Virus record (IMG/VR): IMGVR_UViG_3300046758_000491
Span: 1 to 28,060 of that record
From: a virus
Reading direction: 5' to 3' (one strand)
DNA: 28,060 bases
In this document: positions 10,503-28,060 of the stretch, piece by piece
How the letters are laid out: every line of letters begins with the position of its first letter
How positions within the stretch are numbered: the stretch's first letter is position 1
Notes under the pieces: generated by a model
Seen by the model: the letters and a program-made list of their open reading frames with translations, nothing else
What the model was told of the DNA's origin: nothing
Database searches by the model: none
Translations under genes and position numbers: made by a program

Positions 10503-10510
10503 ATCATCTT

Positions 10511-12780: not shown

Positions 12781-13295
12781 TGTGCAATCTCCATAACTGT
12801 AAAGTTACTTATTGTTGATCCACTAGTCTGTTCATTGATACCAGCATTATTGTCACCACTCGCGCTTCTAGCTCTATACTTTACGTGGTATGTAATAGAA
12901 TTACCTAAGGTATATGTTGGAGAATCATAATCTGTTACGCTAATCAATGCTCTCAATGAGTTACTATTCCATGCGCTTCCCTGGTTCATGCCCCACATAA
13001 CATATGGATCTGTACTATGTGAGTGTAATTGTGTTGAGTTTCTAAATAAATTCAAAACACCTTTACCCGACCAAGAAAAATTTGCAAGCAGAAAAAAACT
13101 ACTATTTGCAAATTTTGGTGTAATCACAATATTGCATAAATCTACATAGGATGTAGATGAAGTATTACTCGTAGTTCCGTAAGTAGTATGCTTTACTTGT
13201 ACTACAGAACCCGAACTTTTTAGATTTGCACCAGAGGCAATCTCAATAGTAGAGCCTGTTCTGGAATCAAGTTCATTTACTCTTAACTTACTCAT
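12777..13295 (-). CDS. Fibre tip-like protein, ITPKF/EIAQ family
   Basis: This 172-residue protein has the leader MSKLRVNELDSRTGSTIEIA with ASGANLKSSGSVVQVKHTTY. The beta domain contains SSTSYVDLCNIVITPKFANS (about 47-66) and SSFFLLANFSWSGKGVLNLF, and ends SNFTVMEIAQ. It is a clear paralog of the 7270-7833, 7830-8429 and 6800-7270 products. The final codons GTT ATG GAG ATT GCA CAA TGA hold a GGAG site and the next gene's ATG. The start overlaps the glycine-rich gene by 4 bases with GAGGTGA as ribosome site. A fibre tip is likely, with receptor unknown. Confidence 0.82.
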   Translation of the reverse strand: MSKLRVNELDSRTGSTIEIASGANLKSSGSVVQVKHTTYGTTSNTSSTSYVDLCNIVITPKFANSSFFLLANFSWSGKGVLNLFRNSTQLHSHSTDPYVMWGMNQGSAWNSNSLRALISVTDYDSPTYTLGNSITYHVKYRARSASGDNNAGINEQTSGSTISNFTVMEIAQ

Positions 13296-15596: not shown

Positions 15597-15925
15597 TAAG
15601 TGATCTCCAGAATGCTTAATGCTACGTCAACAGAAGACGCTGTGTCAGATGTTACTTTCAATACGTCACTCGCATTTAACACAACCTTTTGGTCTCCGCC
15701 GACTGCGACTAAAGAACTTCCAATTGGAATCGGTGCGGCTTTAACTAGATAGATGTTATCTCCGTCTGCGTTCTCGATCTGTACATCTACCTGTACGCTT
15801 GAAGTTACAATGTTTGCAAGATTCAAACCGATGATAGTTGTTTCTGTAGATGATGGACACGTATAAACTGTAGCAGCGCTTGTGCTTACAGCTGTGTCTG
15901 TGACTAGTTTAAATGCATTTGCCAT
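15596..15925 (-). CDS. Small structural protein (MANAFKLVT type)
   Basis: This 109-residue predicted beta-sandwich begins MANAFKLVTDTAVSTSAATV, continues YTCPSSTETTIIGLNLANI and VQVDVQIENADGDNIYLVKA (about 63-82), then PIPIGSSLVAV and VVLNASDVLKV, ending ALSILEIT. As I recall, small proteins of this type ('VYTCP..T.T.I.GL..AN') are encoded among tail/fibre genes of marine T4-like phages and are annotated only as virion structural. The ribosome site GGGGTAAG comes from the end of the 54-aa gene. A small decorating or connector subunit is possible. Confidence 0.8.
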   Translation of the reverse strand: MANAFKLVTDTAVSTSAATVYTCPSSTETTIIGLNLANIVTSSVQVDVQIENADGDNIYLVKAAPIPIGSSLVAVGGDQKVVLNASDVLKVTSDTASSVDVALSILEIT

Positions 15926-15928
15926 ATC

Positions 15929-16093
15929 TTACCCCAGTGCGATTGCCATAGCGATGCCGCCATCGCCAGTAGGGGCTAATGCCGTCACGTCAGATGAGTC
16001 TAGAATTCGTGAATGAGTTCTACCCGCTAATGTGATTGTATTGTTGATTATGATCCCGTTCTTCACGACGAAATCTTTGTGCTGTGCTGACAT
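15929..16093 (-). CDS. 54-residue small structural-type protein
   Basis: The frame from ATG 16093 to TAA at 15929-15931 encodes 54 residues: MSAQHKDFVVKNGIIINNTI, TLAGRTHSRILDSSDVTALA, and an end PTGDGGIAMAIALG. It has an AGGGAA ribosome site and a TATAAATA late promoter about 30 bases upstream, so it is the first gene of a late transcript. 'DFVVKNG' followed by repeated hydrophobic/asparagine residues occurs at the start of some phage fibre proteins, so it may be the N-terminal (attachment) remnant of one, or a small free subunit. Function unknown. Confidence 0.75.
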   Translation of the reverse strand: MSAQHKDFVVKNGIIINNTITLAGRTHSRILDSSDVTALAPTGDGGIAMAIALG

Positions 16094-16123
16094 CGGTTCC
16101 CTATCCCCGTGTTGACTTTATTC

Positions 16124-16131
16124 TATTTATA
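16124..16131 (-). promoter_or_regulatory. T4-type late promoter inside the fibre array
   Basis: The minus strand reads TATAAATA in a 40-base gap, 31 bases before ATG 16093 and directly after the stop of the upstream EIAQ gene. The box and the following nine bases are identical to those at the 6765-6772 promoter. Confidence 0.75.
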
Positions 16132-16133
16132 CT

Positions 16134-16700
16134 TTACTGCGCAATTTCTTGAATAATCATTGAAGTAGTATCAGTAGTGTAGGTACCGGTACTAGCAGTG
16201 GATCCTGTCCCGATATAATTAGCAGTGGAATTGCCAGGAAATTCGCAAAACTTCAAGTAAAATGTCGGATTCCCACCAGATATATCACTACTGACAATAG
16301 TGTGATTGCCACTACTTGTAAAATTGGCACCATTACCCGATGCAATCGTTCCGCTTCGGCCTTCAGCAAATGCAGTTGTATTGCCAACGCCAGCTGCTCC
16401 AGCAATATTTGTGCTGTTGATCCATAGCGATAATCCACCACCCCAGTTTGTATCAGTGCCACGACTACAAACTCCATGAGCTAAAACAACAATTAAGCTT
16501 CCGACTCTTGGTGTAGCGTCTAATTGACCAGACATATGAGTTTGCCAAGACGTACTAGTGGTCGAACTAATAGTATTTACTACTAGCCTTTTTACTTGAA
16601 TGACATGGCCCGGTGCAACTAACTTGTGTCCGCTTGGAACTACAATTACATTGTTAGTATCTGTGTGTGATAAGATTTTGTTTACGTATAATTCACTCAT
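16134..16700 (-). CDS. Fibre tip-like protein, EIAQ family
   Basis: This 188-residue protein has the leader MSELYVNKILSHTDTNNVIV with VPSGHKLVAPGHVIQVKRLV. The domain has TSTTSWQTHMSGQLDATPRV (about 49-68), GSLIVVLAHGVCSRG, LSLWINSTNIAGAAGVG and the end SMIIQEIAQ. VPSGHKLVAPG matches IPAGHKLVASD of the 14937-15596 product, so the two are paralogs. It is the last gene before the internal late promoter. The TAATG junction couples it to the upstream gene. A fibre tip protein is inferred, with no ligand or enzyme motif. Confidence 0.82.
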   Translation of the reverse strand: MSELYVNKILSHTDTNNVIVVPSGHKLVAPGHVIQVKRLVVNTISSTTSTSWQTHMSGQLDATPRVGSLIVVLAHGVCSRGTDTNWGGGLSLWINSTNIAGAAGVGNTTAFAEGRSGTIASGNGANFTSSGNHTIVSSDISGGNPTFYLKFCEFPGNSTANYIGTGSTASTGTYTTDTTSMIIQEIAQ

Positions 16701-17350
16701 TATGCTATCGCTCTTATTGTCATGTGTGGTATCATTAAATGCTGAGCATCACTTGCATATTCCCAAGTGTTATAGTGAAGTTTTGATTCGTATGAAGCAC
16801 TATGTTCTTTATACTGTACATCAAGTGTTTTTGCACTAGTCCATCCATTGAGTTTCCCGTTTGCAATATCATTAGAACTATGTGTCAAGTCAATAGAATA
16901 CTCTAATGATATTGGAAACCCAGCATGATGCCAGTTAGTAGATGCATAGTTTGATGAAATACTATGAGCCGAAGGATTAATGTCTGTTCCATCAAGTCGA
17001 ATTTTATGGCCCGAAATACCAGAGTTCTCTACGACATCCCAATGATAATAGAATCTAAAATAAACACACTTTGTACCAGTCGGTGGAGTATAAGACATAG
17101 TGCTACCGGTTATGGTTGTCCATGTTGTCGTACCATTTTGAACGGCTGTAACATTCTCCATAGTATAACTACCAGACTGAAGAGTTACAGTTCTACCATC
17201 CGCCTGAGCATTTAACTCTTCAAGTATCTGGCCAGCGGTAGAAGTTTGATTTGCCATGCCAACTGGAAATGTTAAACTACCATCGTTGTGAACCGTTACA
17301 GCTTCAATGCCTGTTTGAGATTTTAGTTTGTTTACTTTGATTTCACTCAT
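16700..17350 (-). CDS. Fibre tip-like protein ending TIRAIA
   Basis: This 216-residue protein has the leader MSEIKVNKLKSQTGIEAVTV with HNDGSLTFPVG. A segment QADGRTVTLQSGSYTMENVT (about 50-69) follows. The beta domain has STMSYTPPTGTKCVYFRFYY (about 83-102), ISGHKIRLDGTDINPSA and FPISLEYSIDLTHSS, ending MTIRAIA. The 'Y.PP.GTK.V.Y.F.Y' motif is one I associate with fibre proteins of T4-like marine phages. It begins nine bases after the C1q-like gene, whose GTAGGATAGGATAAG end supplies the ribosome site, and overlaps the next ATG by one base. Confidence 0.8.
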   Translation of the reverse strand: MSEIKVNKLKSQTGIEAVTVHNDGSLTFPVGMANQTSTAGQILEELNAQADGRTVTLQSGSYTMENVTAVQNGTTTWTTITGSTMSYTPPTGTKCVYFRFYYHWDVVENSGISGHKIRLDGTDINPSAHSISSNYASTNWHHAGFPISLEYSIDLTHSSNDIANGKLNGWTSAKTLDVQYKEHSASYESKLHYNTWEYASDAQHLMIPHMTIRAIA

Positions 17351-17358
17351 ATCTTATC

Positions 17359-17883
17359 CTATCCTACTAAAAAGCCACTGAAGCGACAGCCCGGCCGAAT
17401 TCGTGTAGACGTATCTGAACTTACATTAAACAACGGATTGACAGTTTGACTTGCAGTTAGATAGATTAACGCTGATGTTGTAAGTGTTAAATAAGAGGCG
17501 GCCTGTGGGTCTTCAAGATTACGATATACCTCGTTACCAGCCGCCTCTCCGTCTATTGCCAAATATGTGCTTACCCACTGCGCCGATTCTATGCTATCGA
17601 TACCAACTGAAAGATTAAATTGATAGTAGCCAGTTACCGAGGCTGTAAATGTTGCAACGTCTGAAGCAGATATTGCTATACAGCTACCAACATTAAAATC
17701 TATAGTATCAAAAGGAACATCAACGCCATCGCTCGCGGTGAAATCGGTTGTCGCGCTAATGGTAGATAAATATAGACTAAACTTTGGATTAGCCGGCATT
17801 TGAACACGTCCGCCAGTATCAATTGACATTGCATCTGTGCTGTTGGTATGTTGCGCTTTGTTAAATTTTAAAATGCTTGCCAT
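17359..17883 (-). CDS. C1q-like fibre tip protein
   Basis: This 174-residue protein has the leader MASILKFNKAQHTNSTDAMS with IDTGGRVQMPANPKFS. A C1q/TNF-like domain follows: LSTISATTDFTASDGVDVPF (about 39-58), FTASVTGYYQFNLSVGID (the G-x-Y-x-F strand, about 79-96), LTLTTSALIYLTASQTVNPL and the end RFSGFLVG. Its overall plan matches the 8434-8958 and 10511-11017 products. It starts immediately after the base gene at 17884-18126. A trimeric receptor-binding tip is inferred. Confidence 0.82.
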   Translation of the reverse strand: MASILKFNKAQHTNSTDAMSIDTGGRVQMPANPKFSLYLSTISATTDFTASDGVDVPFDTIDFNVGSCIAISASDVATFTASVTGYYQFNLSVGIDSIESAQWVSTYLAIDGEAAGNEVYRNLEDPQAASYLTLTTSALIYLTASQTVNPLFNVSSDTSTRIRPGCRFSGFLVG

Positions 17884-18126
17884 CTATATCACCGTTAATG
17901 CGCCATTGACTGTAATGGCTACTCCAGAGTCTACACTGATAGGACCAATTAATAATCCGTTAGTGCCTGAGTCAATTGTTAAATTGCTCGATACACTATT
18001 ACTCGACGTCTTAAGCGCAGGTCCGAACATAGTTGCATTACCTTCAATCACTAGCTCACCGCCTAATGTGATCTTTGTTCCTGCAGCGCCATTTTCTATT
18101 CTATCGACTTTAATAGTGCTTGTCAT
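17884..18126 (-). CDS. Short fibre 'base' protein with NAM-type C-terminal module
   Basis: This 80-residue protein joins a tip-style leader (MTSTIKVDRIENGAAGTKIT, then LGGELVIEGNATMFG) to the shared module at 43-80 (NSVSSNLTIDSGTNGLLIGP, ISVDSGVAITVNGALTVI). It therefore links the two halves of the array's grammar: the leader of the tip genes and the C-terminus of the base genes. It heads the set 17359, 16700 and 16134. The stop (TAG) touches the next ATG. Role unknown, probably a connector between a conserved site on the tail or fibre and the following tips. Confidence 0.8.
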   Translation of the reverse strand: MTSTIKVDRIENGAAGTKITLGGELVIEGNATMFGPALKTSSNSVSSNLTIDSGTNGLLIGPISVDSGVAITVNGALTVI

Positions 18127-18134
18127 AACTTATC

Positions 18135-18509
18135 CTATGCGTATGGACTTGTGCCGAGAAGATCAGAATCCCATGCCGCTTTCAATTCATCAATAGTAGA
18201 TGCATCTGTAATAGCACTAGCTGCAGGTGCATCTCTCAGCGCGGCCTTCTTATTTGCTGAAGCAGTCTTTGCTGATGTATCGTCTGCTTCTAAAGCTTTC
18301 ATGTAAACTACATCTTCAGCTTTCAATAATTCTTCTCTTACTTCTCGAAGCTTGTTCTTAAATAAATTTTTTGCTTCTGTCATATCTTCAGAAATGACTG
18401 ATCCACTCAAGGACCATGCATTTCGAAAGTGACGATTAGCCGGAATACTAGTTGCATCGGATCGATCAATAGTATTACCGTCTTTATCAGTAATATTAAT
18501 AGTAGCCAT
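18135..18509 (-). CDS. Fibre assembly chaperone-like protein with PANRxFRNAW motif
   Basis: This 124-residue protein begins MATINITDKDGNTIDRSDAT and has the motif IPANRHFRNAWSLSGSVISE (about 22-41). A charged helical region follows (EAKNLFKNKLREVREELLKA, about 45-64), then ANKKAALRDAPA and a tail with STIDELKAAWDSDL. The 'LR.VR..LL...D.........A...ALRD.PA' spacing resembles the C-terminal half of the chaperone-like protein at 11660-12052. The FRNAW motif also ends the adjacent 150-residue protein. A strong AGGAGA site precedes the ATG. A fibre folding/assembly helper is the best guess. Confidence 0.72.
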   Translation of the reverse strand: MATINITDKDGNTIDRSDATSIPANRHFRNAWSLSGSVISEDMTEAKNLFKNKLREVREELLKAEDVVYMKALEADDTSAKTASANKKAALRDAPAASAITDASTIDELKAAWDSDLLGTSPYA

Positions 18510-18519
18510 CTTTTATCTC

Positions 18520-18972
18520 CTATGCTACGTTAAGTTCTTCGGAAATGCGCCATGCATCTCTCCAAGTTCTATGCGACGGTAACTGTTCTTTTTTACAAAT
18601 TACCATTTTAGGTCTGTTACCTTTATTCCAGTTTTTCCACACTTCCTGTGGTACATCCTTCATAATCAAATATTCAATTGCTTCTTTCTCTGTCATCGGA
18701 TCCATGGGTTTTGTTTCATGCAAAAGATGACCTCTCGTATGTTTCTTAAAATCTGCCTTTGCTTCATCTGCCGCCAGTTCATGATAAACCCATACTGGCG
18801 GAAGAATACCACCGTGCATTGCGCACGCCATCCAGTTAGGATCTGGTGTCATGACTGATACTGGCCTATCAGGATCACGTTCATACACAATTCTGTAGTC
18901 AGTCTGAACAGGCTCAAGGTTTTCCTTGGCCCAACATAATCTATCAAATAATTTATAGTCACTTAGTTTCAT
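18520..18972 (-). CDS. Protein of unknown function ending in PSHRTWRDAW motif
   Basis: The preferred start is ATG 18972 (150 residues, MKLSDYKLFDRLCWAKENLE). It makes an ATGA overlap with the previous stop and has GGGGAG seven bases upstream. ATG 18990 lies inside that gene. The body has YRIVYERDPDRPVSVMTPDP, NWMACAMHGGILPPVWVYHE (about 47-66), a charged helix, and a C-terminal LPSHRTWRDAWRISEELNVA (131-150). The last motif matches IPANRHFRNAWSLS near the start of the next protein. It is unlike the beta-rich fibre genes around it. It may be the N-terminal half of a split chaperone-like protein. Confidence 0.75.
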   Translation of the reverse strand: MKLSDYKLFDRLCWAKENLEPVQTDYRIVYERDPDRPVSVMTPDPNWMACAMHGGILPPVWVYHELAADEAKADFKKHTRGHLLHETKPMDPMTEKEAIEYLIMKDVPQEVWKNWNKGNRPKMVICKKEQLPSHRTWRDAWRISEELNVA

Positions 18973-19346
18973 GCTAAATCTCCCCAACATCCCATTGCAT
19001 GCGCCGCATCGGCCACACTAAAAGACGAGTTCATACATTCAATATCCATAACAGATGTAGATGACTCTGCTGTTTTTATTCTAACAACATCTGCATATCC
19101 CAAAACAGTTCCTGAGCAATATTCCTGGGCTAAGTTTCTTGCCAAGTTGTTTGTTAAATTATATTTGTAGTCTCCAGTTCCTTCATCTACACCGCTAGTA
19201 ATATTAATTGATGAATTTGAATATATAGCTGCAGCGTCCGTCGCTGCTACTTTTGCTTTAACTGTGCCTTCAACAACGTACTCTGTCGGAACAGAACCTG
19301 CAGAATTATGCTCAATGAAGTTAGCTCTGATCTTACCATAACTCAT
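18969..19346 (-). CDS. Fibre tip-like protein, GDLA family
   Basis: The start at ATG 19346 (125 residues, MSYGKIRANFIEHNSAGSVP) is chosen because it gives the family leader (compare MSTLRANSIEHTNGG), an ATGA overlap and a GGGGAG site. ATG 19361 would add MGRLS. The domain has INITSGVDEGTGDYKYNLTN (about 44-63), TAESSTSVMDIECMNSS and the end MGCWGDLA. 'D.GTGDY...LTN' is a known fibre-tip pattern in marine phages. It is the third of three consecutive GDLA paralogs. Function inferred: small fibre tip or decoration protein. Confidence 0.8.
   Translation of the reverse strand: MSYGKIRANFIEHNSAGSVPTEYVVEGTVKAKVAATDAAAIYSNSSINITSGVDEGTGDYKYNLTNNLARNLAQEYCSGTVLGYADVVRIKTAESSTSVMDIECMNSSFSVADAAHAMGCWGDLA
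18980..18985 (-). promoter_or_regulatory. Ribosome binding site deciding the start at 18972
   Basis: The minus strand reads GGGGAG, seven bases, then ATGA. The site is made by the codons for the G-D-L-A-stop end of the upstream tip protein, and the upstream ATG at 18990 lies before it. Confidence 0.75.
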
Positions 19347-19768
19347 GCTAAGTCTCCCCATCCAGCGATATTCAAATCATCGTGGTCGTCTTGTGCACTG
19401 CTGCCATTACAGCCTCTAGTTGAGACTTTTGTTGTGCTTCTACCCGGATTGGAACCGCTACCACCCCAATCTAAACTATCTAACGACGCGTAACCTGAGC
19501 TAGTGCCACCGCCGGTACCACACGCCTGGGCCGACCAAATAGTATTAGCAAATGCATTTGTTGTATTAAACCGGTGGTAACCAGTCGCGTTATCTTCAAG
19601 TGAAGAAATGTTTAGTGAACCATAAATGTCATTTCCGGTATTGGTATCTGCTGTACCATACATCTTTGCAAGACCTTGACGAATTGTCATGGTCGTTGCG
19701 CCATCCTCAACAGTAACTGTATTCTTATTTGAATAGCCGGTTAACTTATCTGTTTTTATCTCACTCAT
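19343..19768 (-). CDS. Fibre tip-like protein, GDLA family
   Basis: This 141-residue protein has the leader MSEIKTDKLTGYSNKNTVTV with DGATTMTIRQGLAKMYG. The core is YGSLNISSLEDNATGYHRFN (about 49-68), TTNAFANTIWSAQACGTGGG and a glycine/serine-rich part, ending DDLNIAGWGDLA. It aligns in plan with its two neighbours: residue-type leader, 'S...D..TG....F.N....', and a GDLA end. The GGA TGG GGA GAC TTA GCA TGA end holds the next gene's ribosome site and start. A fibre tip role is inferred. Confidence 0.8.
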   Translation of the reverse strand: MSEIKTDKLTGYSNKNTVTVEDGATTMTIRQGLAKMYGTADTNTGNDIYGSLNISSLEDNATGYHRFNTTNAFANTIWSAQACGTGGGTSSGYASLDSLDWGGSGSNPGRSTTKVSTRGCNGSSAQDDHDDLNIAGWGDLA

Positions 19769-20157
19769 GCCAAATCTCCTGCAACCATACTTGCTGCGTA
19801 ATTTAGATCTCTATTAGCATTAGTATTCATGATCCGACAGTTGATACTAAAAGATGTGCTGGTATGTATCTGAGCAGTGGATGCTCTTCCTTCTACGCCA
19901 TAGGTACCACCGCTTTCGCTTTGAGGCTGGCCAGAACCCGCAATTGCATAATCAGCACCACTCATATTATTAGTAAAAAACTTTTGTGTTTGACCTGTAT
20001 TAACATCTGTCGTAGAAGATTGATTAAAACTCGAAACGGACGGGTGTCCTGTCGAATCTTGGTCAACTTCAGAAAACATTTTTAAAGCCGCCTGCTTTGT
20101 GAACGCAATAGGTCCACCATTGGTGTGTTCAATAGAATTTGCTCTTAGTGTACTCAT
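19765..20157 (-). CDS. Fibre tip-like protein, GDLA family
   Basis: This 130-residue protein has the leader MSTLRANSIEHTNGGPIAFT with KQAALKMFSEVDQDS. The core is SSTTDVNTGQTQKFFTNNMS (about 48-67) with GADYAIAGSGQPQSE, then STSFSINCRIMNTNA and the end AASMVAGDLA. 'TDVNTG....FTNNMS.ADYA' parallels 'TDGGTGRSTVTFTNNMNNSAYS' in two shorter pieces of the 20465-21175 product, making these paralogs. It is coupled by ATGA overlaps at both ends. Confidence 0.82.
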   Translation of the reverse strand: MSTLRANSIEHTNGGPIAFTKQAALKMFSEVDQDSTGHPSVSSFNQSSTTDVNTGQTQKFFTNNMSGADYAIAGSGQPQSESGGTYGVEGRASTAQIHTSTSFSINCRIMNTNANRDLNYAASMVAGDLA

Positions 20158-20468
20158 ATCGTTGTCAAGGTGCCTCCGCTTAATACTGTCAATATTACAC
20201 CGGAATCTACAGTCATAGGTCCAATCATCAATGCATTTGAATTACTATCTATTGTTACGTTTGCTGTAATATTCTTTGCTGTTACTTGAATTGGTTCGGT
20301 CACAGTTGTCTTTGTATTGATTGTCGAAAATTTACCTGCAGTAATAGTGTCAGCAATAATCGTACCGCTTAACTGCCCGCCAAATGTAATAGAGCCACTA
20401 CTATCCAATGTGATAGATGCAACACCACCATCAGGATACTGTAATTTTTTTACACCAATTGTACTCAT
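20154..20468 (-). CDS. Fibre 'base' protein with NAM-type C-terminal module
   Basis: The start is ATG 20468 (104 residues, MSTIGVKKLQYPDGGVASIT): ATGA overlap with the upstream stop and AGGAG seven bases before. ATG 20495 lies within the upstream gene. A leader with LDSSGSITFGGQLSG and TIIADTITAGKFSTINTKTT precedes the shared module at 64-104 (ITANVTIDSNSNALMIGPMT, VDSGVILTVLSGGTLTTI). It heads the set 19765, 19343 and 18969, all GDLA tips. 'G.I.ADTITAGKFST' is a fibre-type phrase. A connector or shaft role is inferred. Confidence 0.8.
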   Translation of the reverse strand: MSTIGVKKLQYPDGGVASITLDSSGSITFGGQLSGTIIADTITAGKFSTINTKTTVTEPIQVTAKNITANVTIDSNSNALMIGPMTVDSGVILTVLSGGTLTTI

Positions 20469-21175
20469 GCTAAATCTCCTGCAACCTGACACCATGCTGC
20501 AGTGCCAGCATCATTAGTCACTGTGGCAGAATGACAATAATAGCCGAACTGTGATGTGCTATATGCATCAGCATTATCAGAGTGCATACCGAAGTCGTCA
20601 TTGTAACCGCTGCCGTCTTTTTGAGTACAAGTAGCGGAATATGCAGAATTATTCATATTGTTAGTAAATGTTACTGTAGACCTGCCTGTACCACCATCCG
20701 TTGTGCTAGCGCAATTATAACTATCAAGAATAGCTTGTGTACCAGCTTGAACAATACTACTCCAATGTTTTATCGAACCAGCAGTAAGATTGACTTTGCC
20801 ATATGATCCACCTTCACTAGTACCAAATAATAGACCTGTGTGATATAATCTAAGATTGATATCACCGCTATCAGTCATAAAATATACATCACCATTGTTG
20901 TAATTTGAAATATTCGTGTGGCCGGCGTTAGACATGCCAATGCTTACTCGCTGATTCTGCTCATCAACAAGCATTAATGGTGCAGCTTCACCCTTTGACT
21001 GATTGCCGTAAGCCGTAATGCCAGCATTTGCCATAATCTTACCAGCGAATGTAGAAGAATCCGTAGATGCTGATACGAGCTTTTGATCAAGTGTAATCAC
21101 TCCAGCAGTATTAACTGTCAGAGCGTTTGTGCCATTCAAGTGTTTTATCTTTTTTACGCTAATTGCACTAGTCAT
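20465..21175 (-). CDS. Fibre tip-like protein, GDLA family with extra N-terminal module
   Basis: This 236-residue protein has the leader MTSAISVKKIKHLNGTNALT with VNTAGVITLDQKLVSAS. A middle module has LMLVDEQNQRVSIGMSNAGH (about 68-87), NNGDVYFMTDSGDINLRLYH and GTSEGGSYGKVNL. The tip core is CASTTDGGTGRSTVTFTNN with NSAYSATCTQKDG, ending AWCQVAGDLA. It is the longest of the four GDLA members. The middle part may be a shaft extension. It is TAATG-coupled to the base gene before it. Confidence 0.82.
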   Translation of the reverse strand: MTSAISVKKIKHLNGTNALTVNTAGVITLDQKLVSASTDSSTFAGKIMANAGITAYGNQSKGEAAPLMLVDEQNQRVSIGMSNAGHTNISNYNNGDVYFMTDSGDINLRLYHTGLLFGTSEGGSYGKVNLTAGSIKHWSSIVQAGTQAILDSYNCASTTDGGTGRSTVTFTNNMNNSAYSATCTQKDGSGYNDDFGMHSDNADAYSTSQFGYYCHSATVTNDAGTAAWCQVAGDLA

Positions 21176-21510
21176 TAGAATACCATAAACGTTCCATTGA
21201 TTGTTATTGTTACGCCAGAATCTACATCAATTGGTCCTACGACCATAGCGTTTTCGTTTGAGTCTACCGTCACATTAGAAGAAACCGAGTTAGGATTAAA
21301 CTTAAATCGACTATCCACAATTCCTATTACTGAAGCAGAATCTGCACCGCCACCGGCAGACCTTGCACCGACATAATCAGAGTCAACTAGATTTGTAATT
21401 GCTCGTCTAATCTTCACGTTACCGGGCTTAGATATACGAGCTTCTAAATTATTCTCAAGCTCATCAATAGCTGGTACACTTATATTTCCACCTTTAATTT
21501 TTGTTGCCAT
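21175..21510 (-). CDS. Fibre 'base' protein with NAM-type C-terminal module
   Basis: This 111-residue protein begins MATKIKGGNISVPAIDELEN, then LEARISKPGNVKIRRAITN. One copy of the VDSDYVGAR repeat lies at about 43-51 and a partial IGIVDSRFKF near 63-72, linking it to the 442-residue upstream protein. The shared module fills 73-111 (NSVSSNVTVDSNENAMVVGP, IDVDSGVTITINGTFMVF). One-base overlaps join both neighbours. It is the first of the six base proteins and is followed by one tip gene. Structural role inferred. Confidence 0.8.
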   Translation of the reverse strand: MATKIKGGNISVPAIDELENNLEARISKPGNVKIRRAITNLVDSDYVGARSAGGGADSASVIGIVDSRFKFNPNSVSSNVTVDSNENAMVVGPIDVDSGVTITINGTFMVF

Positions 21511-22838
21511 TATGCGCTAGTCCTAATTGCTCTAAGCTTTACACTAGTATTTGTATAAGTCGGTGTGAATTTTAATCTTACTAAACTTCCACTAATATCT
21601 GCATCAAATGAACCTAGATTCGAATCAAGCAACAGTTGAGCATACGTAGTCATAGCAACTGTAGTTCCATTGTGTGTAAGTAATATCTCTTCACTATGGT
21701 ATTTATTATTAGAATCATGCTCAATCTGCGCGATATATTTCGTAGTCCTATACAAAGTTTTAGTAAATGTATCAACAATCTGATTTGCTGTTGTTGTAGT
21801 AAAATCTGAGTCTACTGCTGATATTAAGTTCTGAGCAATAACATCGCTGTGAACTCTCATTTCAATTTCATCACCAGTTTCTGGTGCAGAATCAAGAATG
21901 ATATTCGATCCTGACAATGAATAACTATTAACGTGTTGCGCTACACCGTTGATCGTAACAATTACTGAATTTTCTGAACCGGAAGCTGGAGCTTCTGATA
22001 GAGTAAATGAAACAGTACTGCTATCACCGGTGTATGAATTAACTTTGATTTGATTGACTGCGCTACTTCCGCTACCGCCACCAGCGGCCGGCGCCCTTAG
22101 TGTAACATATGCGCTATCAACGGTCGAAGTAATTAAGGCGATAGTCGCCGCAGAATCTGTGCTCGGTGGAGTTCTTGCAGTTATGTAAGCGCTGTCAACT
22201 AGACTTATTACTTCGCCAGAATCCATAAAGCGATAGCCGGATAAAGCAGAGTCAATGAATATCTTTTGTCTAGACTGGACGTAAGCGTTATTTACAGTAC
22301 CAGTTATGATAGAAATAACGGCAGCAGAATCTGTAGCCGATACCCTGGCATTAACATAAGCCGAATCGATGAGACTTATTGCACTGGCCGAGTCAAGTGC
22401 AGGCGTGGTCAAATCAATGTTAGCTAGTAGAGACGTGCCAACAGAATCGAGATATGTCGCTTGAGGTTGAAGCCGCACGGCTCCATTCTGTGATACGACA
22501 GTAAACGTGAATTTCTGGTAGTGTGATAGACTCGAATCCTGATTTAAGATAGGAAACGATGAAGCAGTCCTATTTAAGACATAGTCAGAGTCAACAATAG
22601 AAGTTACTTGAGAGGAATCTAGGCTTGCGACTCTTGCATTAATATAGTCTGAGTCGATTGTAGTGGTGACTAAAGAGCTAGTACTCGCTGAATCAATAAA
22701 GGCTTTTATACCATTTGATGCATCTTTATAGAATAACCGGCCATCAGCATAGTTGATAGCCAGTTCGCCATAAGCCAGATCAGATGATCCAGGAACCCTC
22801 CCGACAACGGAGGATTTCTTGAGTTTAATATCTACCAT
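21510..22838 (-). CDS. Fibre-like structural protein with six DSAYVxAR repeats
   Basis: This is a 442-residue protein. The N-terminus (MVDIKLKKSSVVGRVPGSSD, then LAYGELAINYADGRLFYKD) resembles the N-terminal attachment domain of major-tropism-determinant-like fibre proteins. Six degenerate repeats follow: IDSDYINAR (61), VDSDYVLNR (82), IDSAYVNAR (157), VNNAYVQSR (182), VDSAYITAR (214) and VDSAYVTLR (240). Residues about 270-329 form a 'VTINGVAQ...IILDSAPETGD' fibre module. The C-terminal domain (about 352-440, QIVDTFTKTLYRTTKYIAQI to VRLKFTPTYTNTSVKL) is one I recall from structural proteins of marine T4-like phages. A long fibre or baseplate-proximal fibre segment is likely. Confidence 0.85.
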   Translation of the reverse strand: MVDIKLKKSSVVGRVPGSSDLAYGELAINYADGRLFYKDASNGIKAFIDSASTSSLVTTTIDSDYINARVASLDSSQVTSIVDSDYVLNRTASSFPILNQDSSLSHYQKFTFTVVSQNGAVRLQPQATYLDSVGTSLLANIDLTTPALDSASAISLIDSAYVNARVSATDSAAVISIITGTVNNAYVQSRQKIFIDSALSGYRFMDSGEVISLVDSAYITARTPPSTDSAATIALITSTVDSAYVTLRAPAAGGGSGSSAVNQIKVNSYTGDSSTVSFTLSEAPASGSENSVIVTINGVAQHVNSYSLSGSNIILDSAPETGDEIEMRVHSDVIAQNLISAVDSDFTTTTANQIVDTFTKTLYRTTKYIAQIEHDSNNKYHSEEILLTHNGTTVAMTTYAQLLLDSNLGSFDADISGSLVRLKFTPTYTNTSVKLRAIRTSA

Positions 22839-22892
22839 CTTTAGTCCTTAATAAAGGATGCCCTTCACGAGTAAAAACTCAGGCTAATATTC

Positions 22893-24332
22893 TTAGTATG
22901 TACCACCGTCTAGGTCAAATATCGATACCAGTCCAGCAGTAACTGTCATTTGATCAGAGTCAAAGTTAGCAGCACCACGATTTGTTACTGTTGCAACTTC
23001 AACATCTACTTGTAAAGTATTTGCAGCGTCATCATATGTCAAGTCAATAGCTTCACCGGCAAGTAAAAGATTACTTAGCCTGTCATCAACTCTCTCGTCT
23101 GTGTAGTATAGGTTTGTAGAACCTTCAGACAGATTATCGGTGGTGAAGTTGACTAGATGGTTTCTAATACTACCTAGAGGTTTGTTAAGATCCCATGTAT
23201 CGGTGACTGAATTGTAAATGATACTAGCATTAGCACCTTCTACAGAAATACCTGCGCCATTGGCCGCTGCAGAATCCGAAGCAGAGTCTGCCAGAGTAAT
23301 AAGCTTATCATTAACTGTAAGCTCTACCGAATTGATTGTCGTAGTTGTACCTTCAACAACCAAGTTGCCTAGAATAACTAGGTTGCCAGAATCACCGACA
23401 GGATATGGATTGATGTAGAGATAACCTGATGCATCAGTTGAGCTCAGAGTATTTCCATCCATCCTCAAATTATCTACTGTCAAGCTTGACAGACCGGTTA
23501 CATCCGAATCAAGGATAATCGCTACCTGATTGTCGGTAACGGCTGTTGTAATATTAGTTGATCCTTGAAGTGTTAGTGTATCTGATAGAAGAGATACAGT
23601 ATCTGTCCCGCCATCACCAGCGATTGAAAGGTTGGTAGCAACGGCTACAGAACCAGCAGAATCCAAAGTACCTTGTGAATTAACAGTAAAGACCGGAATC
23701 TGAGTGGTTGAACCATACGTGCCTGTCGCTACGCCCGTAGGATCGAGCTCGATAGTAACAGTAGTTCCAGCCCTGCGAGTACCAATTTGTGTACCGCCGT
23801 GAATAATAAGATCCGAATCAGCAAGATTAATTGTACGAGCTTGACCGGAATCGGTTTGAATTTCTATAGTTTTAGTAGCGCTGGCGTTATCTACATAGGC
23901 TTTAGTAGCAGCGTCTTGAGCGCCTGATGGATCTGTAACGTTTGAGATAAGAGATGTGCTAGCATTAATAAAACCAGCACCATTTGGATTGAGGATAATA
24001 TTTCCATCGGTGTTTGTAGACGAGATAGTATTACCATCGATAGTAATATTGTCAACATTTAATACATCAATTTTACTAGACGCATCTACAACAATAGCGC
24101 TTGATGCAGTAAGAGTACCAGCAACATGATCCAGCATATTGGCGAAATAAGCACCGCCAATGACTTCGATAGTAGTCGCGTTTCCGGAACCATCATCACC
24201 TTTACCAAAGTAAAGCCTGTCGCCTCCGTTTGCTTGGGTACCGGTACCAGCGGAGTAGGAAAGTTCTCCTGATTTTAATGACCCTGGAGCGCTGGCACTG
24301 GTCGATCTTTTAATTCTGATAATAGTGGCCAT
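22893..24332 (-). CDS. Large fibre-like structural protein with MTD-type N-terminus
   Basis: This is a 479-residue protein. The N-terminus MATIIRIKRSTSASAPGSLK, SGELSYSAGTG and GGDRLYFGKGDDGSG (36-50) resembles the attachment domain of major-tropism-determinant-like fibres. DGNTISSTNTDGNIILNPNG (99-118) is repeated as DGNTLSSTDASGYLYINPY (292-310). Also present are TDPSGAQDAATKAYVDN (133-149), a common fibre motif, and TQIPVFTVNSQGTLDSAGS (210-228). Module B lies at about 322-386 and module A (TTDNLSEGSTNLYYTDERVD) at 397-416, the reverse of their order in the 302-residue protein at 5832-6740. It ends DLDGGTY. A long fibre backbone is likely. Confidence 0.87.
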   Translation of the reverse strand: MATIIRIKRSTSASAPGSLKSGELSYSAGTGTQANGGDRLYFGKGDDGSGNATTIEVIGGAYFANMLDHVAGTLTASSAIVVDASSKIDVLNVDNITIDGNTISSTNTDGNIILNPNGAGFINASTSLISNVTDPSGAQDAATKAYVDNASATKTIEIQTDSGQARTINLADSDLIIHGGTQIGTRRAGTTVTIELDPTGVATGTYGSTTQIPVFTVNSQGTLDSAGSVAVATNLSIAGDGGTDTVSLLSDTLTLQGSTNITTAVTDNQVAIILDSDVTGLSSLTVDNLRMDGNTLSSTDASGYLYINPYPVGDSGNLVILGNLVVEGTTTTINSVELTVNDKLITLADSASDSAAANGAGISVEGANASIIYNSVTDTWDLNKPLGSIRNHLVNFTTDNLSEGSTNLYYTDERVDDRLSNLLLAGEAIDLTYDDAANTLQVDVEVATVTNRGAANFDSDQMTVTAGLVSIFDLDGGTY

Positions 24333-24592
24333 TAATAATTGCCTCCGTTGATGTCTTGTTTCTCAAGAAATATTGTAGCTTCAAAGTTTCCGGAAGTTGC
24401 GGAATATACTAACATCGATCCATCTACCTTTCCACTGGTATCTACTCCAAGTAGGTTGTTAATACTCGTCGATCCAGAGCTTACATTTCTAACTGGCCGA
24501 CCTACAACAACTCTTTTAACCTGCGTTGTTTGTCCTACACCCCTAACCGTTTTTACCTGAGTAGTCTGGCCAGTTCCAATTCTAATAGCCAT
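24332..24592 (-). CDS. Small structural-type protein with GQTTQVK repeat
   Basis: This 86-residue protein has a basic N-terminus with a tandem repeat (GTGQTTQVKTV, then GVGQTTQVKRV, residues 6-28). SSGSTSINNLLGVDTSGKVD (38-57), GSMLVYSATSGNFEATIFLE and an end KQDINGGNY follow. The second part ('LL.VDTS.KVDG..L.Y....G.FEA') is common in fibre-associated proteins of marine T4-like phages as I remember them. The end GGNY parallels GGTY of the next protein. It is TAATG-coupled downstream and starts three bases after the 116-residue gene. Function unknown. Confidence 0.8.
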   Translation of the reverse strand: MAIRIGTGQTTQVKTVRGVGQTTQVKRVVVGRPVRNVSSGSTSINNLLGVDTSGKVDGSMLVYSATSGNFEATIFLEKQDINGGNY

Positions 24593-24595
24593 ATC

Positions 24596-24946
24596 TTACC
24601 TCGTTACGGACGGAGTGACTGTAATCTTACCCTCTAAAATTCTCTCAATGATCGTGTCACCATCACTATCAGCAAAAGAAAGTTCAACATCATAAACATA
24701 CCGACCAGCTTTGAGAGCGTCTGTTTGAGCATTTGTCAATGTAATAGTGCAGATACCTCGAACCGCGTTTGCTATAGTAGTGACAAAGGATGTAGTATCT
24801 GCGCTGTCGCTACTATAAGTTTTCTTCAATTTTGCGGTGACTGTATGATTCGTCAAATTCTTGACTGTACCATCCGTATCAACTAGATGCAATTCAATAG
24901 ATGCATCAGCACCTTGATCTATCGTAATATCTTCGTATTGGGCCAT
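24596..24946 (-). CDS. Small Ig-like/baseplate-type structural protein
   Basis: This 116-residue protein is the first gene after the paired late promoters. It begins MAQYEDITIDQGADASIELH, has LVDTDGTVKNLTNHTVTAKL (about 22-41), and continues AVRGICTITLTNAQTDALKA (about 61-80) and GRYVYDVELSFADSDGDTII, then RILEGKITVTPSVTR. The pattern 'D.G.d....l...d..G...dLtg.t..a.lr......G......l...T..L..G.Y.YDv......G....l.G...V.p' fits the Ig-like N-terminal domain seen in baseplate upper (BppU-like) proteins of many phages. It may anchor the fibre complex to the tail. Confidence 0.82.
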   Translation of the reverse strand: MAQYEDITIDQGADASIELHLVDTDGTVKNLTNHTVTAKLKKTYSSDSADTTSFVTTIANAVRGICTITLTNAQTDALKAGRYVYDVELSFADSDGDTIIERILEGKITVTPSVTR

Positions 24947-24974
24947 TTACAAAATACTCTTAGATTGTTTTCTA

Positions 24975-24982
24975 TATTTATA
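24975..24982 (-). promoter_or_regulatory. T4-type late promoter (proximal) of the fibre array
   Basis: The minus strand reads TATAAATA, 28 bases before ATG 24946, in the 57-base gap after the radical SAM gene. The spacing is like that at the 6765 and 16124 promoters. Confidence 0.75.
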
Positions 24983-25000
24983 AAAATATAATATCAGATC

Positions 25001-25008
25001 TATTTATA
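25001..25008 (-). promoter_or_regulatory. T4-type late promoter (distal) of the fibre array
   Basis: The minus strand reads TATAAATA, 26 bases upstream of the proximal box and overlapping the stop codon of the radical SAM gene. Two exact boxes in tandem suggest strong or staggered late initiation of the roughly 8.8-kb segment down to the 16.1-kb promoter. Confidence 0.65.
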
Positions 25009-26110
25009 CTAATTTGCGCTTAGGAATCTTTGAATCTGCAGAAGAAACGCATGTTTCTGTAATGCACGGCATAGGTTTTTCAAATAATTTGAAACCTTTA
25101 TCAATGTATCCTAGTGGCTCGTCACTACAAGAATAAGATCTTTTGATACTGCCGTCAGGCTCTCGAATAATAATAGACCTATAACCGGACTCACAAGTCC
25201 AGCCACTAAACTTATTGAAATTAAAAGTATTGAAGCGTTCTGCTTGGTCCATATAGTATTTTTTTCCATCTGCATCTTCTAACTCTACTTGCATATGTTG
25301 AGGGATGCCAGTTTTTTCATAACGTAAATCAAGCTCCACTTTGGGTCTGGGTCTTCTGATGAGTTTTTTTGTGTCGGTAAAGCCTCGTTGAGGCATGCCG
25401 TTACGTAATCGTTCAAGCATGCTATCAGTATAGCCATCAACAATAAAACTAGCAGTAGGATCAGACTGAGGTTTAAGAGTGACATTGATTCCTCTTTCAT
25501 GGAAGTACAACGCGTCCTCCCAACATTGTTCAAACTTATCCGGCAGCATAACTTGATTGATTGTAACTTGAATGTCTTGGCTCTGGCAATATTCTAATTT
25601 GTCGGCAAACTCCGCAACTTTCTCTTGTGTATCTACATGTTCTCTATGACACGAGGCTGTGATACTCGACCTGTGAAACCTGCTACAAATCGCAGCGTAT
25701 TCTTCAAACCATTTCATCTTACGTGAAATATTAGAAGTCATATGTACTGAATGATAGTTACAGTTAGGAACATCATCGGCTAAGTATTCCATAATCTCTA
25801 GATAGTCTGGATGAAAAGTTGGCTCACCACCAGAGAATGAAAAATGAAATGAATTGTAATTATTAGCACGCGATTGACGTTTGATCTCATCGATAGTCAT
25901 TAGAATCAAGTCAATCGTACGGTGATCTTTCTTGCGGCTTGAAGCGTATGGCCAGCAATATGAACATGAGTAATTACAAAATCTTCCTAGTAACCAGCTG
26001 ACCGTAAACAAATCACGGTGCAGCATAGTCCTTTGTCCTACGCTTACAATATTGTCAAATGGTATTTGAGTAAAGTCATATTGGCTCCACTTCAAATCAG
26101 TCGTAGACAT
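25004..26110 (-). CDS. Radical SAM enzyme with SPASM-like C-terminal cysteines
   Basis: This 368-residue protein has the radical SAM 4Fe-4S motif C45-x3-C49-x2-C52 (FCNYSCSYCW) and the GGEPT-type SAM-binding loop FSGGEPTFHPDYL (92-104). It has a C-terminal set C306, C328, C349 and C354 around IIIREPDGSI, resembling SPASM/twitch domains that hold auxiliary clusters. Such enzymes make 5'-deoxyadenosyl radicals to modify peptides, sugars or other substrates. The substrate here cannot be read. It overlaps the SGNH gene upstream by 14 bases, so it belongs to the carbamoyltransferase-SGNH-SGNH group. Late promoters for the fibre array overlap its end. Glycan or protein tailoring are the leading options. 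Confidence 0.9.
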   Translation of the reverse strand: MSTTDLKWSQYDFTQIPFDNIVSVGQRTMLHRDLFTVSWLLGRFCNYSCSYCWPYASSRKKDHRTIDLILMTIDEIKRQSRANNYNSFHFSFSGGEPTFHPDYLEIMEYLADDVPNCNYHSVHMTSNISRKMKWFEEYAAICSRFHRSSITASCHREHVDTQEKVAEFADKLEYCQSQDIQVTINQVMLPDKFEQCWEDALYFHERGINVTLKPQSDPTASFIVDGYTDSMLERLRNGMPQRGFTDTKKLIRRPRPKVELDLRYEKTGIPQHMQVELEDADGKKYYMDQAERFNTFNFNKFSGWTCESGYRSIIIREPDGSIKRSYSCSDEPLGYIDKGFKLFEKPMPCITETCVSSADSKIPKRKLV

Positions 26111-26975
26111 AGCTTTGTTCAGACGCAGGCCTGTCCTTATTTAATTCGCGATGATATGCATTAATGAATTCAGCAGCAATGAGCTGATGCGCCTTTTGAT
26201 TAGGATGGTTGTCTTCTGCAGAAATAAACAAGTGCTCATACTTGTGATAGCCAGACTCACTATAATCAAAGAAATTTCTCTCAAGCTTATTTGTCATATT
26301 CTCAATGTACTGATAGTATTTTAGATCTTTACAAACTTCAAACAACTTCTCTCTTATTTTCATTGTTGTAGGTGATATTGCACCATCGGGTTTTGTTACG
26401 GCTTCAGCACCCATAATAGTATTTAATGCGGTACCGTGAATGATGGCAATTCCTTTCATTTTACAGTATTCATCAAGTAAATAAATTGTTCGCAATGATT
26501 CTAACACTACAGCTGCATATACATTCATTTCCGGATCTAAGTTAGGTATTACTGTATTGGCTTCAGGCCTGAACCCGGATGAAGAATACTCAATTTTCTT
26601 TTTAGATATAAAATTAAGTCTTTCAGAAATATACTTTTCCACTGAAGCTTTTGTCAATCTAGATTCATTGGGTTCTCTGGCCCAGTTACCGCTCTTTCCT
26701 AGAACAATGTTATCAAGCCCAAAGATGCTAGCTCGAGAAGCTTGTGACCAGTATACAAATACAATGATTTCTCTATCCAGATTTTCATTGATTGTATCAA
26801 AAACTTTATTAGCTATAAACTGATTGCCAGCTCCTCCAGTCCCTTGATTGATCAAATCCCAGTCCATAAAGTCGGCAACAATGGATGACCACACATTGAT
26901 ATTTTTTTCAGTGTATCCCGGTTCTATAGCGTCAGTCCAACTGCAACCTGAAGTAATAAGAAGAGGCTTAGTCAT
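26097..26975 (-). CDS. SGNH-type hydrolase-like protein
   Basis: Starting at ATG 26975 the protein has 292 residues (MTKPLLITSGCSWTDAIEPG). This start overlaps the upstream stop by 8 bases and puts the nucleophile block near the N-terminus as in the family. ATG 26999 would add eight residues and is possible. Block I is SGCSWTD (S12), the glycine block is NQGTGGAGNQF (43-53), a W-x-Q-x-x-R segment lies at VYWSQASR (74-81), and the C-terminal block is DNHPNQKAH (255-263). SGNH proteins add or remove acyl (often acetyl) groups on glycans. It ends SYVYD, like SFIYD of its upstream neighbour. Confidence 0.8.
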   Translation of the reverse strand: MTKPLLITSGCSWTDAIEPGYTEKNINVWSSIVADFMDWDLINQGTGGAGNQFIANKVFDTINENLDREIIVFVYWSQASRASIFGLDNIVLGKSGNWAREPNESRLTKASVEKYISERLNFISKKKIEYSSSGFRPEANTVIPNLDPEMNVYAAVVLESLRTIYLLDEYCKMKGIAIIHGTALNTIMGAEAVTKPDGAISPTTMKIREKLFEVCKDLKYYQYIENMTNKLERNFFDYSESGYHKYEHLFISAEDNHPNQKAHQLIAAEFINAYHRELNKDRPASEQSYVYD

Positions 26976-27918
26976 ATATAAAAGACTCTTCATATCCATC
27001 TACCTGAACTTTTTGCGATTTAAGTATTTCAGAAAGAATACCCCCCATCATGTCTGAGTTTTTAATATTCGGTTTAAGCTTAATTTGTTCAAGTATTCTT
27101 TTAGTGTCAACTTTATGCCAGTCAATAGGCTCGTTATTAAGTCTTTTTATGATAAGGTCAGCCATAAATTCATGGCCTTCTTTATCATCATGCGTATCAA
27201 AAGTTCCTATTTCTTTGTTGAATAAGGCTTTACTGCGAAATGGCCATTGCGTACTTTGTGTGCCGTGGCCGAAATGCCCTTGAGCTATCTTATATTTGTT
27301 TAGTGTCGTTTGCAAATCATTAAACATGTCATAGCTTTTTATTTCTTCTTCAATACTTGGATATATCTTTTTGTTATGTTTTACAAATTTTTCATCACCA
27401 GGCGAGTTAACTTTACAAGATTCCCAAACTCTATCAGACGTAAAGAATGTCTTTAGATTTATATCTTTAGATTTGCAGTATAGAATAAAATAATGTATCG
27501 CATGCATTTGATGTGTACGAATCCACTGCAAAGATAGATAATTACACACACATACTTGTTGTCTCATTGCTTCATCAAATATATCTTCGTATTCAAAATC
27601 ATACATCAAACTTCTATCTGGAGAAAATTTTCTATATGAATCCACTACAGGTTTTTTTTGTTTCTTAAAATCATGCCGTGGTATTTCAAATCTTGCAGTC
27701 TGAGGCCACGAACATAAAACCATGTCTGGCTTTTGGGAATTGTTTTCAAGCCAACTAATTGTAGTTTTTACAACAGAAGAAATGCTTGATCCACTCTCTG
27801 CTATATTAATTACTTCTTCACCTAATCTTTTTCCTAATACTGCTGGCCATGGGTCAATGCCATTTTCAACGCAGTACCAAGTTCCGTGTGTACGAGAACA
27901 ACCATTGACTAATATCAT
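26968..27918 (-). CDS. SGNH-type hydrolase-like protein
   Basis: This 316-residue protein begins MILVNGCSRTHGTWYCVENG, with a block I-like NGCSRTHG (S8), NIAESGSSISS (38-48) as the glycine/asparagine block, CSWPQTARFEIP (69-80, the W-x-Q-x-x-R match to its neighbour) and a C-terminal FDTHDDKEGHEFMADL (240-255) with candidate catalytic D/H. The family call is by pattern and somewhat weaker than for the neighbour. A TAATG junction couples it to the carbamoyltransferase. It ends ESFIYD. It may act on a glycan that is also carbamoylated. Substrate unknown. Confidence 0.74.
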   Translation of the reverse strand: MILVNGCSRTHGTWYCVENGIDPWPAVLGKRLGEEVINIAESGSSISSVVKTTISWLENNSQKPDMVLCSWPQTARFEIPRHDFKKQKKPVVDSYRKFSPDRSLMYDFEYEDIFDEAMRQQVCVCNYLSLQWIRTHQMHAIHYFILYCKSKDINLKTFFTSDRVWESCKVNSPGDEKFVKHNKKIYPSIEEEIKSYDMFNDLQTTLNKYKIAQGHFGHGTQSTQWPFRSKALFNKEIGTFDTHDDKEGHEFMADLIIKRLNNEPIDWHKVDTKRILEQIKLKPNIKNSDMMGGILSEILKSQKVQVDGYEESFIYD

Positions 27919-28060
27919 TAAAAAACCTTTACTTTATACGTCTCTTCAAATTTAAGAGCGTCTGTTAAATTATCAACCATCGGCATGCCCTTGATATTCA
28001 AACTAGTATTAAGAAGCATAGGACATCCAGTTTTCTCATACCACTCTTCTAGGATAGTTC
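27918..28060 (-). CDS. Carbamoyltransferase, C-terminal end (cut by window edge)
   Basis: Only the last 46 residues are in the window: EEWYEKTGCPMLLNTSLNIK, GMPMVDNLTDALKFEET and an end YKVKVF. The 'P.LLNTS.N..G.P.V....DAL' motif is the C-terminal hallmark of NodU/CmcH-type O-carbamoyltransferases, which move a carbamoyl group from carbamoyl phosphate to a hydroxyl of a sugar or other small substrate. Members encoded by phages have been linked to glycan and to modified-base chemistry. The upstream part, including catalytic motifs, lies outside the window. Its stop overlaps the next ATG (TAATG), so it is in one operon with the SGNH and radical SAM genes. Confidence 0.82.
   Translation of the reverse strand, partial: TILEEWYEKTGCPMLLNTSLNIKGMPMVDNLTDALKFEETYKVKVF

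Follow-up and report, generated by a model that had tools for sequence, protein, structure and literature searches.

NodU/TobZ-type O-carbamoyltransferases transfer a carbamoyl group onto a sugar hydroxyl. Among radical-SAM enzymes, SPASM denotes a seven-cysteine C-terminal motif for two auxiliary clusters, and twitch a shortened auxiliary-cluster domain. A host recognition cluster is known from pelagimyophages, and the sections of that report considered here describe the region as hypervariable (PMC7029224). Moreover, the T4-like environmental genome TARA_ERS488813_N000010 carries 12 radical-SAM genes (PMC5332604). Radical-SAM-rich phage islands are already known; the papers found do not describe the two modules, the bacterial relatives and the cassette junctions reported below.

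We analysed a stretch of 28,060 nucleotides (the window), positions 1 to 28,060 of the virus record IMGVR_UViG_3300046758_000491. The carrier is an uncultured T4-like marine myophage, and the operon studied here lies inside its host recognition cluster: the window encodes a head-tail adaptor Ad2, Hc2, a sheath stabilizer, terminase and sheath, which is the gp13/gp14-type neck side, and a VrlC homologue lies at the far side of the island in the relatives G009 and G003, as expected for such a cluster. Four minus-strand genes occupy 25004-28060, namely a truncated carbamoyltransferase, the SGNH-like P0003 and P0002, and the radical-SAM enzyme P0001. The original prediction that they overlap end to end was exact, with overlaps of 1 nt (27918), 8 nt (26975..26968) and 14 nt (26110..26097). 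Since the four reading frames are long, conserved and matched to families, a chance origin is excluded. Comparison with relatives placed these genes at the 3′ end of an operon of 12-23 genes; 7-11 of these are radical-SAM genes, whose partners are a PLP-type enzyme, a QueC-like ATP-dependent ligase and an oxygenase-like protein. The order carbamoyltransferase, SGNH (one to five genes), P0001 and fibre was found in every window-clade locus of sufficient length; in L009, L010 and L030 an additional gene, c45, follows the carbamoyltransferase. Marine phage records related to this one contain up to 23 radical-SAM genes apiece, many of them in a single island. This is an unusual Fe-S investment for a virus living in oxygenated sea water; 7 of 12 such records have a gene for an A-type Fe-S carrier.

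The carbamoyltransferase (27918..28060, minus strand) is of the NodU/TobZ type (Carbam_trans_C, 5.8e-10; phrog_1601 Nol-like carbamoyltransferase, 4.2e-11). Its frame leaves the contig at 28058, where the record stops, so the window copy consists of the last 46 residues only. A full-length relative is found at the same place in L014, and the full-length relatives carry both domains, PF02543 and PF16861. Mutated active sites in this enzyme had been named as evidence against a tailoring role; in the relatives the expected metal-binding histidines and other motifs were invariant (12/12), as read from full-length copies.

For P0002 (26097..26975, minus strand), the start is probably the ATG at 26975, and a longer frame of 300 aa begins at 26999. 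Its AF2 model (pLDDT 84, pTM 0.84) retrieved GDSL/SGNH hydrolases in Foldseek, with seven chains at E <1e-3 and a best value of 8.5e-5, and the family alignment identified G18, S20, W84, R89 and H265 as invariant. P0003 (26968..27918, minus strand, 316 aa) is a divergent SGNH-like protein assigned by profile only, through a 64-bit match to a family HMM built without it; it keeps the family-invariant G/S/W/R/H residues (G6-C7-S8, W71..R76 and H243). The block I serine and the block V histidine (S20 and H265 of P0002) were invariant in 31 aligned members, including P0003. The block III GxND asparagine is absent from this family, which has the invariant W84/R89 instead, and the canonical DxxH acid was not seen, the acid lying mostly at D/E-x-H. 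A tblastn search of annotated phage genomes returned no match for P0001, P0002 or P0003, and a close-relative scan with P0003 found no relative.

P0003 and P0002 are joined by the 8-nt start/stop overlap ATGACTAA (26968..26975, minus strand), and the same junction type follows most SGNH genes of the clade. Similarly, the 14-nt overlap ATGTCTACGACTGA between P0002 and P0001 (26097..26110, minus strand) recurs in L002, L003 and L014. In the comparison with L014, the P0003 gene was present or absent as a whole unit. As judged from such comparisons, which showed gene-precise gain and loss, the SGNH genes form a swappable cassette array, and the junction offers the phage a concrete route to exchange tailoring enzymes gene by gene. 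We also considered the conserved SGNH C-terminus, [YF][VI]YD, as a docking tag, an idea that was dropped because the constant overlap with the ATG of the following gene at least largely accounts for the motif.

P0001 (25004..26110, minus strand) matched PF04055 above the cut-off (4.3e-14), and its CxxxCxxC core (C45/C49/C52) and GGE are invariant. It had been described as a radical SAM-SPASM enzyme. However, the only conserved cysteines of its C-terminus are C306, C328, C349 and C354, the seven-cysteine motif is absent and no SPASM Pfam match was obtained for it, so the domain is not of the SPASM type and may be twitch-like. Core and auxiliary cysteines were invariant in 14 orthologues. The AF2 model is weak in the C-terminal third, with pLDDT <50 over the four-cysteine part; fold matches were BlsE, TigE and viperin. 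The family was found in at least 462 viral loci.

A T4-type late-promoter-like TATAAATA overlaps the P0001 stop codon (25001..25008, minus strand) and was seen at this position in 11 of 11 window-clade loci. A second TATAAATA (24975..24982, minus strand), also seen in L012 and L014, stands ahead of a fibre-assembly-like gene (24596..24946, minus strand; phrog_1084, 2.2e-24; phrog_3304 'L-shaped tail fiber protein assembly', 5.3e-20), the first gene of the adjoining late unit and outside the operon. The four genes do lie directly before the late fibre array, as had been noticed, but the fibres have their own TATAAATA sites and therefore look like a separate transcription unit. The idea that a late promoter serves the fibres only was overturned: in G009 and G003 a TATAAATA stands 35-40 bp ahead of the operon's first gene. 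The whole operon is probably late-expressed.

The original prediction placed all four genes in one operon acting on a shared substrate. The fixed order in the clade agrees with this, but a single pathway is weakened because relatives carry the genes apart. SGNH genes were present in 23 of 26 dereplicated carbamoyltransferase loci; 14 of these 23 lacked P0001, and 7 lacked any radical-SAM match. The P0001 family, in turn, is accompanied by neither SGNH nor carbamoyltransferase in the majority of 73 dereplicated viral loci. It is also found on Bdellovibrionota chromosomes, and in viruses and Bdellovibrionota alike it travels with two other radical-SAM families, c2 and c0. Taken together, gene content across loci indicates that the four genes are not a stand-alone pathway but two separable modules, carbamoyltransferase with SGNH and radical-SAM.

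Separation with unrelated partners would have spoken against joint tailoring. The modules are indeed separate, but the partners are not unrelated, both modules lying among sugar or glycosyltransferase genes. Glycos_transf_2 was the commonest neighbour of the Bdellovibrionota trio (11 of 86 non-radical-SAM neighbours, against 2 for the next distinct family). In minimal Bdellovibrionota loci the sole sugar-like partner is b2, which has no family match above cut-off; neither Pfam nor PDB profiles confirmed that it is a glycosyltransferase. In L171 and L173 the carbamoyltransferase-SGNH pair occurs with GT17, UDP-glucose/GDP-mannose dehydrogenase and phosphomannomutase, L173 additionally having an NDP-sugar epimerase/dehydratase; in L165 the neighbours include GT25 and a GT8-like gene; and in HTVC008M a UDP-glucose/GDP-mannose dehydrogenase lies two genes after the carbamoyltransferase. 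Nor is the pair tied to fibres: elsewhere it was found with replication genes or with nucleotide-sugar genes.

Based on these gene neighbours, we propose, with a probability of roughly 0.55, that the operon serves the late-expressed tailoring of a glycan or nucleotide sugar for the virion or the host surface, an unusual sugar or glycan being produced or altered inside the infected cell. The radical-SAM enzymes, together with the PLP-type enzyme, the QueC-like ligase and the oxygenase-like protein, would remodel the sugar or nucleotide sugar, and the carbamoyltransferase, with the reaction type of NodU/TobZ, would carbamoylate a hydroxyl of a putative sugar substrate. The SGNH proteins, given their fold and Ser/His pair, may introduce acyl or carbamoyl esters, or take them off, at various positions. 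GT8-like transferases of the flank would then transfer the product to progeny fibres or the host surface, so that receptors are masked or switched. The fixed start/stop overlap may allow single SGNH genes to be gained or lost with translational coupling intact, and this swapping could diversify the decoration beside the fibres. More tentatively, and with the odds against it, about ten radical-SAM enzymes, the carbamoyltransferase and the swappable SGNH array might make, for virions or the host surface, a phage-specified glycan of new chemistry; one-gene cassette exchange beside the fibres would diversify decoration and recognition together, and the core radical-SAM trio would be one that Bdellovibrionota have as well.

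The original prediction left a glycan, a modified base and a virion protein side by side as substrates. The glycan is the best supported, the virion protein is weaker and the DNA base is unsupported. Against a glycan stand the missing complete nucleotide-sugar pathway in the operon, the position of the GT8-like genes in a divergent flank with weak matches, and the fact that twitch/SPASM radical-SAM enzymes mostly act on peptides; no classical GT2 was found in window-clade records. The peptide preference, with peptide-modifying enzymes such as TigE among the structural neighbours of P0001, would fit radical-SAM modification of the neighbouring fibres, finished by SGNH and carbamoyltransferase, and window-clade islands always adjoin fibre genes and have late-promoter-like sites. 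We nevertheless consider this unlikely: Bdellovibrionota chromosomes have the same trio next to GT2 genes, where no fibre context was seen, and the carbamoyltransferase-SGNH pair is not confined to fibres. Somewhat less likely still, the four could be independent auxiliary genes with no shared product, since the modules occur apart and the region is hypervariable in the sections of the pelagimyophage report considered here (PMC7029224), a view that sits poorly with the fixed order and overlapping junctions of the window clade and with each module separately adjoining sugar genes.

Hypermodification of DNA bases, for example to 5-carbamoyloxymethylcytosine or 7-deazaguanine-type bases, appears improbable. 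In its favour, a phage NodU-type carbamoyltransferase can carbamoylate 5-hydroxymethylcytosine (5hmC) (PMC8670742), and the island encodes a QueC-like PP-loop protein with a conserved four-cysteine motif. However, all three readable thymidylate synthases (G012, G014 and G016) carry Asn177, the dUMP type, so the dCMP-type (Asp177) partner of the 5hmC set was not seen; the fragments G002, G005 and G009 gave no match, and the G003 match was unreadable at position 177. Moreover, only 3 of 12 related records had QueD/PTPS, and the carbamoyltransferase-SGNH pair accompanies nucleotide-sugar genes; outside the DNA-modification set, carbamoyltransferases are reported to lie between unrelated genes, glycosyltransferases for example (PMC8670742). 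Equally improbable is a diffusible small molecule or RiPP-like peptide, for example against competitors. The variety of tailoring enzymes gathered in a single operon, the structural match to TigE and the weak similarity of the radical-SAM families to peptide maturases, PapB for example, would speak for it. However, with known genes masked, no small ORF beyond the main genes was conserved in ten Bdellovibrionota loci, the overlapping window genes leave no room for a precursor between carbamoyltransferase and P0001, and no NRPS/PKS gene was seen.

Glycan tailoring thus remains the preferred reading; with the island divided into two modules, each having sugar-gene partners, what was an unexplained list of genes becomes a glycan hypothesis open to testing. 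Compared with known systems, the island carbamoyltransferases share the two-domain family and conserved motifs of NodU/TobZ enzymes and differ in being compact, about 440 aa. The 5hmC carbamoyltransferase (PMC8670742) is likewise a phage enzyme of this superfamily, but it is clearly divergent in sequence and is partnered by a thymidylate-synthase homologue rather than SGNH and radical-SAM proteins. One c0 enzyme of the island passes the N_Twi_rSAM family NF033640 (190 bits against a cut-off of 170), whereas P0001 is far below it (46 bits). TARA_ERS488813_N000010 (PMC5332604) is likewise T4-like, marine and rich in radical-SAM genes, and it too encodes an A-type Fe-S carrier; there the genes were read as Fe-S utilisation, without analysis of operon, partners or substrate. 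The pelagimyophage study (PMC7029224), in the sections considered here, does not resolve radical-SAM families, the carbamoyltransferase-SGNH module or start/stop cassette junctions. The cultured Pelagibacter phage Mosig EXVC030M (MT647606; PMC7892664) differs in gene order (SGNH, DegT sugar aminotransferase, radical-SAM, carbamoyltransferase, MTase, GT8-like), with the DegT gene in between, and a P0001 orthologue was not found in it. Nevertheless, Mosig has same-family SGNH, a c2-type and another radical-SAM enzyme, a carbamoyltransferase, and MTase, PLP, 2OG and fibre-assembly genes in one island, its host recognition cluster, and, having Pelagibacter HTCC1062 as host, provides a version open to assay.

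On the minus strand, the four genes overlap end to end by 1, 8 and 14 nt (5′ to 3′), as originally noted. The virus record is 28,060 bases in its entirety, with no sequence past the end of the window, and its end cuts the carbamoyltransferase to a 46-aa 3′ end (28058..27918, minus). P0003 (27918..26968, minus), a distant SGNH-family member, scored 64 bits against an SGNH HMM built without it, and the SGNH fold of P0002 (26999 or, better, 26975..26097, minus) was recognized from its AF2 model (pLDDT 84) and Foldseek, confirming the expected pair of SGNH proteins. Across the family alignment, the dyad residues Ser and His never vary, while the GxND block is absent and an invariant Trp/Arg pair stands in its place. 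P0001 (26110..25004, minus) matched Radical_SAM and kept C45/C49/C52; its SPASM label had to be dropped, since the C-terminus carries four conserved Cys and SPASM has seven.

When the same gene set was sought in other genomes, the order was conserved within the window clade, but the set separated into two modules. Of the dereplicated carbamoyltransferase loci, 26 had downstream sequence, and SGNH genes were found in 23 of them; among these 23, 14 lacked P0001 and seven lacked any radical-SAM match. The second module joins P0001-type genes to the radical-SAM families c2 and c0: within at most 21 kb, 68 of 73 dereplicated P0001-type viral loci carried c0 and 50 carried c2; SGNH and carbamoyltransferase genes were present in 17 and 16, respectively. 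The initial P0001 scan gave 33 virus loci, and a search with the orthologue alignment gave at least 462. The P0001-type/c2/c0 trio also occurs on Bdellovibrionota chromosomes, and in the tree one clade (99/96) held most viral sequences, separate from the bacterial ones, with two viral outliers (L029 and L031). Four MAG contigs (L055, L056, L070 and L073) resembled phage DNA assigned to bacterial bins and do not enter the bacterial counts. Beside the bacterial trio we observed a conserved family, b2 (motifs VHGVKG..AH... and VDGDN; loci L057, L060, L061, L063-L067, L069 and L075), which had no Pfam match over cut-off and was named a transferase from motifs or weak matches.

At the 3′ end of most SGNH genes lies TATGACT(A/G)A or a 14-nt variant, with the ATG of the following gene embedded inside. 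The window differs from L014, its closest relative, by exactly one additional gene, P0003, whose flanks are 92.5% and 94.7% identical; the switch point is the start codon, at which ...TTTTTTAATGA and ...TTTTATATATGA resemble each other. SGNH copies of one locus share 22-49% identity over aligned parts, and several have closer relatives at other array positions in other phages, such as the third of four in L011 and the last in L030 (96.7% identity). Taken together, these patterns fit an array that would evolve by swapping of single-gene cassettes.

The close relatives are metagenomic fragments. In the window clade, several c0 N-twitch radical-SAM genes come first, usually with c4 and c22, and are followed by a QueC-like PP-loop gene (c5), at least one c2 gene, the carbamoyltransferase, 1-5 SGNH genes, P0001, fibre assembly, fibres and neck; the names PLP-type (c4) and oxygenase-like (c22, likewise c16, c24, c26 and c35) come from motifs or weak matches. 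The operon comprised 12-23 genes, 7-11 of them radical-SAM, in the five records whose upstream sequence was read (G002, G003, G005, G008 and G009), and related records reached 23 (180 kb) and 22 (60 kb) radical-SAM matches. A-type Fe-S carrier genes were seen in 7 of 12 related records (G003, G012, G014, G015, G016, G020 and G022), consistent with high Fe-S cluster demand. A VrlC homologue bounds the island's other side in relatives; in G003 (45543-50766) it lies in two frames (1037 and 691 aa; 1,710 aa in G009), owing to a frameshift or to a genuine split. At the island's far end (G009 22529-25400; G003 56.6-57.7 kb), GT8-like proteins that contain DxD motifs are encoded in a short divergent operon together with c86, a conserved methyltransferase-like family. 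The window itself contains neck, sheath-stabilizer, terminase and sheath genes, and about 20 short tandem ORFs (6800-21510, minus; 109-368 aa), probably a fibre or receptor-binding array. Many share a start motif like M-S-x-[IL]-x-V-x-x-[IL] with varied C-termini; most other window-clade loci have a single long fibre protein (1,000-1,260 aa) instead. Several fibre-like proteins (window 5832-6740, minus; G009 26772-27206) share a C-terminal motif of the type LLxKNxAGTTLKTIxGxG that might serve in assembly or trimerisation.

The motif TATAAATA corresponds to the T4 late -10 consensus. It overlaps the stop codon of P0001 in all 11 window-clade loci and lies 35-40 bp upstream of the operon's first gene in G009 and G003, which suggests that the operon is late and that the fibres behind it form a late unit of their own. 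The window holds five copies, all on the coding strand, against 2.8 expected; as the motif is not rare in such AT-rich DNA, this promoter evidence is supportive, short of proof. Late timing would favour decoration of the virion or late envelope over early superinfection exclusion.

Neighbouring genes suggest a sugar as the probable substrate of both modules. The carbamoyltransferase-SGNH pair is flanked in L171 and L173 by GT17, UDP-glucose/GDP-mannose dehydrogenase and phosphomannomutase (in L173 also an NDP-sugar epimerase/dehydratase), and in L165 lies near GT25 and a GT8 match below cut-off. The cultured Pelagibacter phage Mosig consecutively encodes SGNH, DegT sugar aminotransferase, radical SAM, carbamoyltransferase, MTase and GT8-like proteins, and in HTVC008M a UDP-glucose/GDP-mannose dehydrogenase lies two genes downstream of the carbamoyltransferase. 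Around the Bdellovibrionota trio, Glycos_transf_2 accounts for 11 of 86 non-radical-SAM neighbours (next distinct family, 2). Mosig also has a c2-type protein annotated as two short overlapping CDS (locus L150, 10426-11392; 211 and 112 aa) that match one c2 profile and may be a frameshift or split gene. A less probable reading is protein modification: peptides are the usual substrates of twitch/SPASM enzymes, but no fibre context was seen for the Bdellovibrionota trio. The case for DNA-base modification is weaker still: a related carbamoyltransferase produces 5-carbamoyloxymethylcytosine (PMC8670742), but all three thymidylate synthases read have Asn177 and QueD occurs only sporadically in related records. 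A RiPP-type product is also a weaker explanation, with no conserved precursor among small ORFs outside the main genes of ten Bdellovibrionota loci.

A T4-like genome carrying 12 radical-SAM genes was reported earlier (PMC5332604). The island is the 'host recognition cluster' known from pelagimyophages (PMC7029224), whose radical-SAM cassettes are mentioned there without explanation.
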